Of a stretch of 64,000 bases of DNA, positions 11,394 through 62,426 are shown piece by piece. The translations under genes and the position numbers were made by a program. Within the stretch, counting starts at the first letter, position 1, and each line of letters starts with the position of its first letter. This stretch comes from Sulfurimonas sp. HSL-3221 (GTDB lineage: Bacteria; Campylobacterota; Campylobacteria; Campylobacterales; Sulfurimonadaceae): positions 248,001 through 312,000 of the forward strand of contig NZ_CP087998.1 of NCBI RefSeq assembly GCF_021044585.1, written 5' to 3'. The notes beneath the pieces were generated by a model that saw only the letters and a list, made by a program, of their open reading frames with translations, was not told the DNA's origin and searched no databases.

Positions 11394-11422
11394 TTGCATT
11401 CCGGGGCGTGATGCGGTATAAT
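11394..11422 (+). promoter_or_regulatory. Promoter for the SRP RNA
   Basis: TTGCAT (11394-11399) and TATAAT (11417-11422) are 17 bases apart, an almost ideal sigma-70 promoter placed just before the SRP RNA. Confidence 0.8.
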
Positions 11423-11449: not shown

Positions 11450-11566
11450 TTTTGAACGCTCTCCTTTAGACCTGTGCAATGCGTAGGCGAGGCACTGGGT
11501 CAGGATGGGAACATAGCAGCCCACCTTTTCTGTGCATGTGCCGCAGGTATCTGGAGGAGAGTTCCT
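11450..11566 (+). ncRNA. ffs: Signal recognition particle RNA (4.5S type)
   Basis: The RNA folds as one long hairpin. GAACGCTCTCC (from 11454) and AGACCTG on the 5' side pair with CAGGTATCT and GGAGAGTTC (to 11564) on the 3' side. The apical region carries the universal Ffh-binding domain: GTCAGGATGGGAACATAGCA around 11501-11520, with a GGAA tetraloop flanked by the CAGG and AGCAGCC internal-loop strands. A T-rich stretch (11571-11580) follows. The exact 5' end is uncertain; the promoter predicts a start near 11429 and the helix begins at 11454. There is no sign of an Alu domain. Confidence 0.88.
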
Positions 11567-12477: not shown

Positions 12478-12705
12478 TTAATCTTCCCGGTATTTTGAAA
12501 TCCCGCACGGCTGGTTCGGTGAGGGCGGATGCGCTTCGAGGTATTCGAGATCCTCGAGGGTCTGTTTGAGGACCTTCTGCTGCTGCAGCAGCGGCAGCAT
12601 CGCGTTATCTTTCTGGGTCAGGTTGAGCTTCATATCCATCAGGATCGCCTGCACCTCTTTGTCGAGGTCGGACAGGGCGTTTCTTACGTGTTCGATCGGT
12701 TTCAT
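12478..12705 (-). CDS. Small coiled-coil protein of unknown function
   Basis: I do not recognise this 75-aa protein. It is almost entirely helical, with a heptad-like leucine/isoleucine spacing over residues 5-55 (VRNALSDLDKEVQAILMDMK and LLQQQKVLKQTLEDLEYLE), then a proline-rich tail. A cytoplasmic coiled coil is likely. There is no ribosome binding site; instead TATAAT on the minus strand ends exactly six bases before the ATG, predicting a leaderless message. Confidence 0.65.
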   Translation of the reverse strand: MKPIEHVRNALSDLDKEVQAILMDMKLNLTQKDNAMLPLLQQQKVLKQTLEDLEYLEAHPPSPNQPCGISKYRED

Positions 12706-12711
12706 GCCGCG

Positions 12712-12717
12712 ATTATA
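12712..12717 (-). promoter_or_regulatory. Promoter -10 predicting a leaderless mRNA
   Basis: Reading the minus strand, TTTGGCTATAAT is followed by six bases and the ATG at 12705. Transcription would start at the A of the start codon. Confidence 0.6.
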
Positions 12718-13629: not shown

Positions 13630-13635
13630 TATAAT
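13630..13635 (+). promoter_or_regulatory. Promoter -10 and leader hairpin for the aminotransferase operon
   Basis: TATAAT at 13630-13635 has no good -35. The predicted leader contains a hairpin, AAGGCGG (13649-13655) with CCGCCTT (13663-13669), before the ribosome binding site. The hairpin is not followed by a U tract, so attenuation is not indicated. Confidence 0.5.
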
Positions 13636-13702
13636 ACGCGGCTTGAAAAAGGCGGTGCAAACCCGCCTTGCCGCATATGCATATCACTTAAGGAAAAAAA
13701 GC

Positions 13703-16951: not shown

Positions 16952-16957
16952 TATAAT
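16952..16957 (+). promoter_or_regulatory. Promoter -10 close to the GGDEF-EAL start codon
   Basis: TATAAT ends eight bases before the ATG at 16966. Transcription would start about two bases before the start codon. There is no ribosome binding site between them and no clear -35. Confidence 0.55.
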
Positions 16958-24749: not shown

Positions 24750-24971
24750 TCAGAGCCGCCCCTGTTTGACAAGGGAGAGGACCATGGCCAGCGAATAGCC
24801 GTCGTTCTCATACCCGTCTTCGATGCAGGATTCGCATTTGTTGCCCAGTTCGCACTCGCTGTGGTTGAGCATCGCGTCGACGCTCTCCCAGCCATGTGAC
24901 TTGATGCATTCGGCAATCGCCTTCATATCCATCGAATTACAGACGCAGATCATGCGGTCGGTGTCGATCAT
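24750..24971 (-). CDS. Bfd-like [2Fe-2S]-binding protein
   Basis: The 73-aa protein has C9-x-C11 (ICVCNSMD) near the start and C46-x2-C49 (NKCESC) later, the cysteine layout of bacterioferritin-associated ferredoxin and related BFD-like [2Fe-2S] domains. The 34-residue gap is slightly longer than in Bfd, and there are additional cysteines (C22, C40). The start overlaps the hemD stop by ATGA, so the two are coupled; a link between haem synthesis and iron-sulfur or iron handling is a reasonable inference. The partner is unknown. Confidence 0.65.
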   Translation of the reverse strand: MIDTDRMICVCNSMDMKAIAECIKSHGWESVDAMLNHSECELGNKCESCIEDGYENDGYSLAMVLSLVKQGRL

Positions 24972-25621
24972 ACTTGCTCCTTTGCCAGCTCTTTTGCGAG
25001 GGTGATGCAGGCCGCGACGGTCGGTTCGGGGGCGATGTGGACCTTCTGGCCGGGAAGGCTCTTTTCCGTCGTGCTGCCGATGGCGACGACGGTCTGGGTC
25101 TGGGCCAGGACAAAGCGGCGCTGAAAGCACTGCAGTGCAGAAGGCGAGGTAAAGATCAGTATGCTGTCGTCGGGAATTGCAATGTCTATTTTATCGGCCC
25201 GACAGAGGGTCTCATAGACCACGGCCTCCTCCACGGCGACCCCCTCGTCGCGCAGCCGGGAGGCGAAGTCCGACGCGACGACCCGGGGGCGTGCATAGAG
25301 CCAGCGGAAACGGGGGAAACGCTCCCGGATAAGTGCGTACAGCATCTCGCCATACCCCTTCACCGTTCCGGCAACCGTGCCGCCGAGTGCCTCCACGCGC
25401 TGCTGCGTTCCCTTCCCGACGCAGAGCACAGGCACGCTTTTCCACTCCGGGGCGATCTTTTCCAGGGCATCGACGCCATTTTTCGAGGTAAAGATGATGC
25501 CGTCGATCCGTGAAAGATCGACTTCGGGCCGCAGCCATGCCGTTTCCAGGATCGGCAGATGGGTAATGTCGGGATCATCGGAGGGGGTCACAGAAAGAAG
25601 ATAGATGGGCCGTATTGTCAT
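24968..25621 (-). CDS. hemD: Uroporphyrinogen-III synthase
   Basis: HemD inverts ring D and closes hydroxymethylbilane to uroporphyrinogen III for haem and sirohaem. The 217-aa sequence is divergent, as usual for this family, but keeps the two-domain alternation with DGIIFTSKNGVDAL (about 37-50), LCVGKGTQQRVEALG and the later ILIFTSPSALQCF and VVAIGSTTEKSL. An open frame extends 93 codons upstream, but ATG 25621 matches the family start and has TATAAT exactly six bases upstream with no ribosome binding site, predicting a leaderless mRNA. It overlaps the Bfd-like gene. Confidence 0.85.
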   Translation of the reverse strand: MTIRPIYLLSVTPSDDPDITHLPILETAWLRPEVDLSRIDGIIFTSKNGVDALEKIAPEWKSVPVLCVGKGTQQRVEALGGTVAGTVKGYGEMLYALIRERFPRFRWLYARPRVVASDFASRLRDEGVAVEEAVVYETLCRADKIDIAIPDDSILIFTSPSALQCFQRRFVLAQTQTVVAIGSTTEKSLPGQKVHIAPEPTVAACITLAKELAKEQV

Positions 25622-25627
25622 AGATGG

Positions 25628-25633
25628 ATTATA
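25628..25633 (-). promoter_or_regulatory. Promoter -10 predicting a leaderless hemD mRNA
   Basis: On the minus strand GTTGGTTATAAT is followed by CCATCT and then the ATG at 25621. The six-base gap places the transcription start on the A of the start codon. Confidence 0.65.
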
Positions 25634-25715
25634 ACCAACTCCCGGTGGATGTCGGGAGAAGGAGACGCTTTGAATGAAGGTAGGGAAAGTATAGTAAAGA
25701 AAAGTTACTAAACTG

Positions 25716-26132
25716 TTAACGCTTTTTCTGGCACGCCGGGCAGATGCCCCGCAGCACGATATCGCTGCTCTGGATGCTGTAGCCGCTGACGGCTTCGGCG
25801 TGCGCTCTGATCTGCTCCGTATCGAAGGAAAAATCTTCGATCTTCCCGCATTCGCTGCAGTGCAGGTGCAGGTGCGGCTCTTTTCGGATCTCGAAAACAC
25901 TCTTGCTCTCGGGGACTTTCACCTCTTCGAGCAGTCCGTTTTCCGTCATTATGGCAATATTCTTGTACACCGTCGCCAGTGAAACGTTCGGATACGCTTC
26001 TTTTACCTCCTGGTAAAGCATATCGATGTTCAGGTGGCCGAAGGTGTTGAGGCTTTCGACGATCTTGAGCCGCTGCGGTGTCACTTTGAGATGGTGGTTC
26101 CGCAGGTTTGTGGCTATGAGTTCTTTATTCAT
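25716..26132 (-). CDS. Fur-family transcriptional regulator, PerR-like
   Basis: The 138-aa protein has the winged-helix N-terminal half (LKVTPQRLKIVESL, VSLATVYKNIAIMTENGLL) and the metal-binding C-terminal half with HLHLHCSECGKIEDF and GICPACQ: two CxxC pairs for structural zinc. Divergence from a cytochrome c peroxidase gene favours a peroxide-sensing PerR role over iron-sensing Fur, but this is inference. The ATG at 26132 gives the family N-terminus. There is no ribosome binding site, and a weaker -10 (TTTAAT) ends six bases upstream, so it may also be leaderless. Confidence 0.8.
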   Translation of the reverse strand: MNKELIATNLRNHHLKVTPQRLKIVESLNTFGHLNIDMLYQEVKEAYPNVSLATVYKNIAIMTENGLLEEVKVPESKSVFEIRKEPHLHLHCSECGKIEDFSFDTEQIRAHAEAVSGYSIQSSDIVLRGICPACQKKR

Positions 26133-26327
26133 AGTAGCATTAAAGCACCAAAAAGGTAAAAGTCGAAATAATAGTAGCAAGAAGGCGGCGTTTATTATTT
26201 TCCATTAAGTAAAAGTAGTTTGTTTATTTAAGGAAAAAAATTATCGTTTACAGGTAGAATTTCCCCATTACATGAATTTGGAACCTTCGCATTTCTGCCG
26301 GAGGATTGAATAATCAAGGAGAGAAAA

Positions 26328-39462: not shown

Positions 39463-39487
39463 GGGAATTCCTCCGTTTTCGGTTGAT

Positions 39488-39525
39488 GTTGACAATGTTA
39501 ACATAGTAATGTGACCGTTGTCAAC
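39488..39525. promoter_or_regulatory. Probable operator of the divergent TetR gene
   Basis: GTTGACAA (39488-39495) and TTGTCAAC (39518-39525) are an inverted repeat, with a palindrome TGTTAACA (39496-39503) inside. It lies midway between the LolA-like gene and tetR, where a TetR protein would control both. Confidence 0.6.
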
Positions 39526-39542
39526 ACCAAGGGGGATTTTGT

Positions 39543-39548
39543 TATACT
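39543..39548 (+). promoter_or_regulatory. Promoter -10 predicting a leaderless tetR mRNA
   Basis: TTGTTATACT carries an extended -10 (TG-n-TATACT). It ends six bases before the ATG at 39555, and there is no ribosome binding site in between. Confidence 0.6.
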
Positions 39549-39554
39549 TTTGAA

Positions 39555-40172
39555 ATGAACCAGGATGAAAAGCGGCCGTACCACCACGGCAATGTGAAAG
39601 AATCGGCGATCGAAACGGCCTTGGAGATGCTGGAGAGCGAGGGGCTCGAAGCCATAACGCTGCGGGAACTCTCGGCGCGCATCGGGGCATCGCGAACGGC
39701 GATCTACCGGCACTTCGAGAACAAGGAGGCGCTGATCCGGGAGGTGATCCTGGCCGGCTTCGAACGCTTTGACGCCTTCTTTGTCGATATCTTTTCCAAG
39801 GGTGACGTGGACGTGCTGACCCGTTTTACGATGATGGGGCGCGCCTACCTCGCCTTTGCCGTCAACAATCCGCAGCTCTACCGCGTGCTTTTCGGACCGA
39901 CGGTGCGCCAGGAACGCGAAGAGGTCTGCGATCTTGAAGACGCTGAAAGGGCGTCTGGGTTTCATGCGCTGGTACATCTCATCGAGGTGGGGCAGCGGGA
40001 AGGGATCTTCAAAAAAGGGGATGCTTTTTTGCTCGCGGCGACGGTCTGGTCGACGGTGCATGGGCTCGCTTCGCTGATTATCGACGGGCACCTGGTGATC
40101 AGCGACAACATCGATGCGATCTTCGAGGCGGGGAACCGCACGCTGCTCGAGGGGCTGAAAGCGGAAGGCTAG
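39555..40172 (+). CDS. TetR-family repressor of the lipid-transport genes
   Basis: The 205-aa protein has an N-terminal TetR helix-turn-helix (about 14-58, ITLRELSARIGASRTAIYRHFENKEALI) and a helical ligand-binding region (about 65-200) with a WHG-type C-terminus (ATVWSTVHGLASLIIDGHL). It is divergent from the LolA/barrel/RND trio, the usual layout for local repression. The start at 39555 has TATACT six bases upstream and no ribosome binding site. The inducer is unknown; a lipid or hydrophobic compound would fit the target genes. Confidence 0.88.
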   Translation: MNQDEKRPYHHGNVKESAIETALEMLESEGLEAITLRELSARIGASRTAIYRHFENKEALIREVILAGFERFDAFFVDIFSKGDVDVLTRFTMMGRAYLAFAVNNPQLYRVLFGPTVRQEREEVCDLEDAERASGFHALVHLIEVGQREGIFKKGDAFLLAATVWSTVHGLASLIIDGHLVISDNIDAIFEAGNRTLLEGLKAEG

Positions 40173-60744: not shown

Positions 60745-61428
60745 TCACGACGTATGCATCGTCCGTGCCGCATGGACAAAGGCCGCGAAGATCTTCCGGC
60801 TGTGCCAGCTGTAGGGCATGAACTCCGGATGCCACTGCACTCCCAGCAGGAAGGGCAGCTCCGTGTGTTCGATCGCCTGGACGATTTTGTTGCCGTCCCG
60901 GGCGGCAATGCGCATCTTCTCGCCGGGCCGGTCGACGGCCTGATGGTGCAGTGCATTGACGCGCAGGGTGGTCTGCCCGACAATGTCGTGCAGGTTTGTC
61001 CCGTGTTCCAGCGTCACCGTTTTGAGCGGCAGGGGCGTATGGGGGTGAGCGACGTCGAGGTCGAAGTCGTGAATATGCGGATGCAGCGTCCCGCCGAAAT
61101 GGAGATTGAGCAGCTGCATGCCGCGGCAGATGCCCATGACGGGCACCCCCCGGCGGATTGCCGCCTCGAGGAGGTAGAGTTCCATGGCATCACGCGCGGG
61201 ATCGGTATGTTCGATGGCCGGGTGCGCCCGGGCACCGTAGGTCTGGGGATCGATATCGCTGCCGCCGGTGATCAGCAGGGCGTCGAAGGGGGCATCACGG
61301 TAAACGGTTTCGGGATGCAGGAAACTTCCTCCCGCCCCGTGGCCCCCCAGCAGGAAGCGGGAGAAGTACCAGGCGAGCCGGCTGCCGCGTTTGCCTCCCG
61401 TGACGGCTATTCGAACTTTTCTGCCCAT
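60745..61428 (-). CDS. Class I glutamine-amidotransferase-like protein (peptidase C26)
   Basis: The 227-aa protein has the triad of the gamma-glutamyl hydrolase group: nucleophile C101 in VMGICRGMQLLN and the histidine and glutamate in LGVQWHPE. DALLITGGSDIDPQTYG and LRVNALHHQAVD match PuuD-like hydrolases that cleave gamma-glutamyl bonds. Its start lies inside the end of the amidoligase gene (22-base overlap), so the two are coupled. It probably removes or transfers a gamma-glutamyl group from the amidoligase product or supplies ammonia; the choice is open. Confidence 0.85.
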   Translation of the reverse strand: MGRKVRIAVTGGKRGSRLAWYFSRFLLGGHGAGGSFLHPETVYRDAPFDALLITGGSDIDPQTYGARAHPAIEHTDPARDAMELYLLEAAIRRGVPVMGICRGMQLLNLHFGGTLHPHIHDFDLDVAHPHTPLPLKTVTLEHGTNLHDIVGQTTLRVNALHHQAVDRPGEKMRIAARDGNKIVQAIEHTELPFLLGVQWHPEFMPYSWHSRKIFAAFVHAARTMHTS

Positions 61429-62414
61429 TGGCGTATCCTTTTTATCCACTGTTTTTTGCGGAAACGGTAGAAGAATGAGTTCATCATGCGGTAGCGCGCA
61501 TAGGCGAGCGACAGCAGCGTCTCCGTATCTTCCGCCAGGCGTTCCACATGGAGCCAGCTGTTCCAGGCGTCGGCGGTGTGCCAACCCGCTTCGTCGACAC
61601 GGGAGTTGGGGAGACGGAAGTGAAAGGCGGGGCGGGGGGAGATCTTCTCTTTGGGCAGGGCCCGGCGGACACGCCCCAGGTCGTTCCAGGCCAGCAGCGG
61701 CAGCAGGTCGAGGGCCCGGTTGCGTGTCGGGTTGGCTTCCAGGTAATCGTCGGTAAAGCTCTCCATCGTCGGACGGTAGGCGGGGTGCAAAACCTTGCGG
61801 ATGTAATCGGAGGGGAAGGGGTCGATATAGAAAGAGAGGCGCCGGGTGAAGACGGGACGGATCTCCTCGGCCAGCAGGTCATAGAGCACGAGGTAGGCGC
61901 GGAGATAGGCCAGCAGGGTCGCCGCACTCAAGTCGGGGGCCTCGGGATTAATGTGGAAGCCGAAGACATAGAGGGGGTTGGCCGTCGTGCCGAGCGCCCC
62001 CGCATCGCGCAGGGCATCTTTAAGGGTCTCGACCAGGTCAAGGGCGTTCATCGGCAGCGGCGGCGTCGTCAGCTCAAAGGGGACAAGCGACGCGGAAAAG
62101 GAGCCGATAAAGTATTCGATGGCGTCGATTTCGTCCTGCTCCATCGCTTCGTCGAACCCGGCATTGTGCAGCCACTCCTGGAGGCCTGAGCGGATGAGGA
62201 ACTGGAAATCGAGCGTCAGGGAGAAGTCTCCCCAGGGCGTCGGGCCGATGGTGTAGTGCCAGGGGTTGATTTCGGTGATCTCGCCCCCGGTGATCTCCGC
62301 GACGATCCTGGCACATGCTTCCAGCTCCGGGCCGGAGTACTCCAGTTCAAATCCGACGCGACGCATCTCGCCGTCGCTGCAGCGCACCTTCGGCGGCAGA
62401 AGAAAGGGTGTCAT
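61407..62414 (-). CDS. Amidoligase-family enzyme (glutamine synthetase-like fold)
   Basis: The 335-aa protein has the amidoligase_2 signatures: VGFELEYSG (acidic metal ligands E23 and E25), FELTTPPLP (E114) and FGFHINPEA (H154). These predicted ATP-dependent ligases join amino groups to carboxylates, giving unusual peptide or gamma-glutamyl conjugates. It heads a two-gene unit with the C26 protein, an association predicted for this family from gene neighbourhoods. The ATG at 62414 has TATAAT six bases upstream and no ribosome binding site, suggesting a leaderless message. The product is unknown. Confidence 0.78.
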   Translation of the reverse strand: MTPFLLPPKVRCSDGEMRRVGFELEYSGPELEACARIVAEITGGEITEINPWHYTIGPTPWGDFSLTLDFQFLIRSGLQEWLHNAGFDEAMEQDEIDAIEYFIGSFSASLVPFELTTPPLPMNALDLVETLKDALRDAGALGTTANPLYVFGFHINPEAPDLSAATLLAYLRAYLVLYDLLAEEIRPVFTRRLSFYIDPFPSDYIRKVLHPAYRPTMESFTDDYLEANPTRNRALDLLPLLAWNDLGRVRRALPKEKISPRPAFHFRLPNSRVDEAGWHTADAWNSWLHVERLAEDTETLLSLAYARYRMMNSFFYRFRKKQWIKRIRQWAEKFE

Positions 62415-62420
62415 GCAATA

Positions 62421-62426
62421 ATTATA
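62421..62426 (-). promoter_or_regulatory. Promoter -10 predicting a leaderless amidoligase mRNA
   Basis: On the minus strand TGTGGCTATAAT is followed by TATTGC and the ATG at 62414. The six-base gap puts the transcription start at the A of the start codon. Confidence 0.65.

Follow-up and report, generated by a model that had tools for sequence, protein, structure and literature searches.

In the stretch of Sulfurimonas sp. HSL-3221 DNA analysed here (64,000 nucleotides, hereafter the window, corresponding to positions 248001-312000 of a genome made of a single 2.52 Mb contig), several genes have a -10 box placed only six bases 5' of their ATG, which raises the question of whether they are transcribed from the very A of their start codon. 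These genes are very probably leaderless, each transcribed from an ordinary vegetative sigma-70 promoter, and their mRNA would start at the A of the ATG. The TATAAT-N6-ATG arrangement itself is real, not due to chance and evolutionarily kept. The class of leaderless genes proposed in the initial annotation is supported as a probable one, by the spacing peak, the restriction to ATG, the pyrimidine at -1, the missing leader and the conserved distance between -10 box and ATG in orthologues whose flanks have diverged.

The window contains three exact TATAAT-N6-ATG patterns, compared to a mean of 0.06 after shuffling, and three or more were reached in none of 100 shuffles. They precede the genes encoding cc75 (a protein of 75 aa), hemD and an amidoligase (Table 1), and all three share TGGYTATAAT. 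A fourth gene, tetR, had initially been credited with the same pattern; its spacing of six stands, but its hexamer reads TATACT, and the coordinates of the window sites are correct apart from this hexamer. The TTTAAT at spacing 6 of the fur-like gene and the TATAAT at spacing 8 of a GGDEF-EAL gene were both re-read as first described. The former is a weak -10 box, and the latter would be predicted to produce a leader of 1-2 nt.

Table 1. Probable or possible leaderless genes of the window and their -10 boxes, followed by the GGDEF-EAL gene of spacing 8 (window positions).
Feature	Positions	Strand	Details
cc75 gene, 75 aa, probable leaderless	12478..12705	-	ATG 12703-12705
cc75 -10 box TATAAT, 6 bases 5' of ATG	12712..12717	-	exact pattern spans 12703-12717
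hemD (uroporphyrinogen-III synthase), probable leaderless	24968..25621	-	Pfam HEM4 2e-27
hemD -10 box TATAAT, 6 bases 5' of ATG	25628..25633	-	exact pattern spans 25619-25633
amidoligase gene, probable leaderless	61407..62414	-	Pfam Amidoligase_2 5e-55
amidoligase -10 box TATAAT, 6 bases 5' of ATG	62421..62426	-	exact pattern spans 62412-62426
tetR-family regulator, probable leaderless	39555..40172	+	Pfam TetR_N 7e-13 and TetR_C_33
tetR -10 box TATACT, 6 bases 5' of ATG	39543..39548	+	
Fur-family regulator, possible leaderless	25716..26132	-	Pfam FUR 6e-27
fur-like gene, -10-like TTTAAT, 6 bases 5' of ATG	26139..26144	-	
GGDEF-EAL gene (ATG 16966), TATAAT 8 bases upstream	16952..16957	+	GGDEF and EAL domains

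To establish whether this spacing is favoured beyond the window, patterns were counted genome-wide and a spacing profile was drawn from 464 kb of sequence, sampled as twenty 20-kb stretches in addition to the window (GC content of 57.8%), in which an ATG was counted if its reading frame stayed open for 60 codons or more. The genome-wide count, which had been proposed in the initial annotation as a check, bears out the enrichment: TATAAT-N6-ATG is found 39 times, compared to 3 for the reversed pattern and 10 for TATAAT-N12-ATG (39 versus 10, P ~3e-12). TATAAT-N7-ATG is found 22 times (9 reversed), and TATAAT-N6-KTG, with GTG or TTG as start codon, only 8 times (13 reversed); GTG and TTG starts give no spacing peak, either in the 464-kb sample or in these genome-wide counts. 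Sites at spacings 4 to 8 number 0, 0, 8, 3 and 1 in the sample and stay low after that until a separate hump at 21-37, and promoters of control genes led by a Shine-Dalgarno (SD) site have spacings clustering near 30. The distribution is bimodal, with the start codon predicted to lie either at +1 or behind a leader of ~15-31 nt. Boxes with one mismatch are also most frequent at spacing 6 (15 versus 5.9 per spacing, P 0.001). When 30 spacing-6 sites were read, 25 of their ATGs began an ORF of 60 aa or more, and the remaining 5 sites look like chance or non-coding occurrences. The spacing-6 excess is also present in other genomes of the genus, and across 61 genomes of the family the total is 2938 at spacing 6 versus 1689 at spacing 12, the former exceeding the latter in 58 of them; the 6-to-12 ratio of the source genome is the third highest.

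The sequence immediately preceding the ATG was then considered. At the 39 spacing-6 sites, this base is C in 20 cases, T in 16, A in 3 and never G, so that a pyrimidine stands at -1 in 36/39 sites, as opposed to 161/354 SD-led starts (P 8e-9), of which 121 have a G. This fits initiation on a pyrimidine-purine step at the A of the ATG, as predicted. A second set, composed of 39 sites of spacing 6 or 7 whose ORF spans 60 aa or more, was compared to 41 leadered starts: SD-like 4-mers are present in 2/39 and 30/41 cases, respectively, a difference that is partly forced because TATAAT itself occupies most of the SD zone. In the same set, the second base before TATAAT is G at 31 sites. As this G is widespread and matches the published gnTAnaAT, the TGGYTATAAT shared by the three window genes is a variant of the box known in the phylum, and not a special one. 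TTGACA-like -35 boxes show no excess over random in the leaderless set.

We further looked at orthologues, only the diverged ones (genomes G044, G050 and G061, and genera g2 and g16) being taken as strong tests; those of the closest genomes are weak evidence because most of their flanking DNA is shared. All five window genes of spacing 6 have genus orthologues, diverged ones included, with a -10 box 5-7 bases 5' of the ATG. For cc75, whose protein is 68-100% identical across 8 genus genomes, the box stands at spacing 6 or 7 in 8/8 of them, and the G044 copy has kept TATAAT-N6-ATG even though its protein is only 68% identical and its flanks differ. The hemD box is present in 7/8 genus orthologues at spacings of 5-7, the spacing being extended to 7 by one inserted base in G027, and the box being TATACT-N5 in G050; an 81% identical relative of hemD also occurs in a Campylobacterales MAG. 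Spacing 6 is found in 6/6 amidoligase orthologues, TTTAAT-N6-ATG in the 7/7 genus orthologues found for the fur-like gene, and spacing 6 in 5/5 close tetR orthologues, the start being shifted in G050, where the box is TATAAT.

Could the ATGs be mis-assigned, TATAAT-N6-ATG being nothing but a promoter whose +1 position happens to fall on an ATG, and the true starts lying further 3', preceded by an SD site? A would indeed be common at this position, since a purine after a pyrimidine is favoured at +1 anyway, and the 5 of 30 sites devoid of a long ORF go in this direction. However, a chance A at +1 leaves the TG at +2 and +3 unexplained. The proposed ATGs also fit because domains begin at or near them: TetR_N, CutA1, adh_short and HEM4 start at or soon after the proposed codon, within a few residues of it for members other than cc75, and cc75 alignments across genera reach the proposed first residue. 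We therefore consider mis-assignment very unlikely indeed.

Most of these mRNAs might alternatively have leaders of 1-5 nt, with a start site wobbling around the ATG, rather than being truly leaderless. The excess at spacing 7 and the variation of orthologues among spacings 5, 6 and 7 would agree with such wobbling; yet the peak is at spacing 6, and the pyrimidine at -1 there points to the A itself, which makes predominantly short leaders very unlikely. As for the group of window sites being a chance or compositional artefact, the window is slightly over-represented, with its 3 exact sites compared to a genome average of ~1 per 64 kb, but the explanation is refuted by the genome-wide excess at spacing 6, by the other genus genomes and by the preference over spacing 12 in 58/61 family genomes, so that its probability is close to negligible.

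The leaderless reading would work as follows. A sigma-70 RNA polymerase would recognise a Campylobacterota-style extended -10 box (gnTATAAT), with little or no contribution of a -35 box, directly abutting the ORF. The usual -10 geometry would have transcription begin at the A of the ATG or, at spacing 7, one base before it. The resulting mRNA would begin with 5'-AUG and would be translated without an SD site, 70S ribosomes presumably binding the 5' AUG. The 5' end at the ATG and the 70S initiation, like any regulatory purpose, are what we infer here. Genes located, like hemD, behind a gene of the same strand may in addition be expressed as part of a longer transcript.

Several other elements were observed in the window. 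A hairpin, CTCCCG-N8-CGGGAG (25639-25658, - strand; fold z-score -2.9), lies in the interval separating the fur-like gene from hemD, immediately 5' of the hemD -10 box, and a similar hairpin is present in diverged orthologues; it possibly terminates transcription of the upstream gene. An imperfect inverted repeat of 22 nt, GTTGACAA...TTGTCAAC (39483-39530, 82% complementary), lies just 5' of the leaderless promoter of tetR and is present in genus orthologues; it looks like a putative operator for autoregulation. The sole match of an Rfam scan of the window is a bacterial small SRP RNA gene (11463-11560, + strand; RF00169, 62.5 bits), with a TATAAT at 11417. Finally, in the 5' region of an aminotransferase gene (13630-13690, + strand), a TATAAT 7 bases 5' of the TTG at 13643 is followed by a GGCGG-N7-CCGCC stem. 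As aminotransferase profiles align only from about residue 18, the true start of this gene may be a downstream ATG.

The leaderless mode is already published for the phylum, and our results are a well-supported further instance of it. In Campylobacter jejuni, dRNA-seq has shown that 12 of 19 short-leader transcription start sites coincide with the first nucleotide of the start codon; this codon is always ATG and follows a TAnAaT, and a search for gnTAnaAT-N5-9-ATG has covered 42 Epsilonproteobacteria (PMC3847290). For six such C. jejuni genes, Ribo-seq supports initiation at the transcription start site or close to it (PMC11955535). The distinct class described in the initial annotation is no novelty for the phylum (PMC3847290). 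Like the leaderless mRNAs of C. jejuni and Helicobacter pylori, the genes described here have gnTAnaAT directly before the ATG, no ribosome binding site and ATG only (PMC3847290). Conversion between leaderless and leadered orthologues is likewise common to both sets, as is MutY, leaderless in C. jejuni (PMC3847290) and preceded here by TATAAT-N7-ATG (L039). As for a SpoU methylase (L034), its gene neighbours lend no support to a link with C. jejuni cj0153c. The published set differs in consisting of measured start sites for few genes, with 19 short 5' UTRs in C. jejuni (PMC3847290), whereas perhaps ~100 candidates are inferred here from the sequence of a high-GC genome. In a survey of bacterial leaderless genes led by a TA-like signal (TANNNT) ~12 bp 5' of the start, a position similar to that of our boxes, such genes were detected in only 2/26 epsilon-proteobacterial genomes, where they made up 2.7-3.2% of genes (PMC3160421). 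The box of the high-GC groups of this survey is the degenerate TANNNT (PMC3160421), whereas the clearest peak is obtained here with the full TATAAT. A -10 box abutting the ORF also acts as a leaderless promoter, with a spacing requirement, in Deinococcus-Thermus (PMC12340547), in which leaderless genes are ~39% of genes on average (PMC3160421), compared to a small minority here.

Leaderless genes are perhaps ~100 in this genome, or ~4%. The first of these values is a rough extrapolation from ~40 exact boxes and an excess of ~9-13 one-mismatch boxes per 464 kb, and the second uses a total of ~2,500 genes, assumed from the genome size. Candidates include an NAD kinase, CutA1, MutY, a DEAD/helicase-C protein, a radical-SAM methylthiotransferase-like protein, PAP2 phosphatases and an ABC transporter. 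An enrichment in regulators and unknown genes, suggested earlier, finds no support when the 39 candidates of at least 60 aa are compared to leadered controls (30 of 37 genes found): proteins without a Pfam family are 11/39 versus 8/30, and regulators 3/39 (GGDEF, AraC and TetR) versus 1/30.

cc75 is a conserved Campylobacterales protein of ~75 aa, with homologues in 74/200 sampled genomes and 30/70 genera of the order. It has no Pfam or NCBIfam match, and its C-terminal CGISKYRE is invariant in the genus. In the window, its neighbours are a DoxX gene, in convergent orientation, and a BacA gene; no uvrC is next to it, and the window lends no support by neighbourhood to a possible link with the leaderless cj1247c/hp0820, located upstream of uvrC. 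Outside the genus, TATAAT or TATACT stands 6 or 7 bases before the ATG of homologues from genera g2 and g16, as well as from the family f7 members L120 and L133, whereas those of g4, g14 and f6 have leaders with AAGG-type sites. The gene is thus found in both forms, leaderless-like in three genera and leadered in others.

One possibility, to which we give slightly less than an even chance, is that this high-GC genus uses ATG-only leaderless initiation in a fixed set of ~100 genes, kept over genus-level divergence, beyond what has been reported for the phylum. If so, conversions between leaderless and leadered forms could be traced as natural experiments. cc75, leaderless-like in some genera and SD-led in others, is well suited to the question of why lineages change their mode of initiation. 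Our results yield a testable list, drawn up from sequence only, of genes that are probably leaderless in a Campylobacterales lineage not studied so far, and recognisable by their spacing of 6, their ATG start and their pyrimidine at -1. Such a list can correct the annotation of gene starts, in which those devoid of a ribosome binding site can be overlooked.
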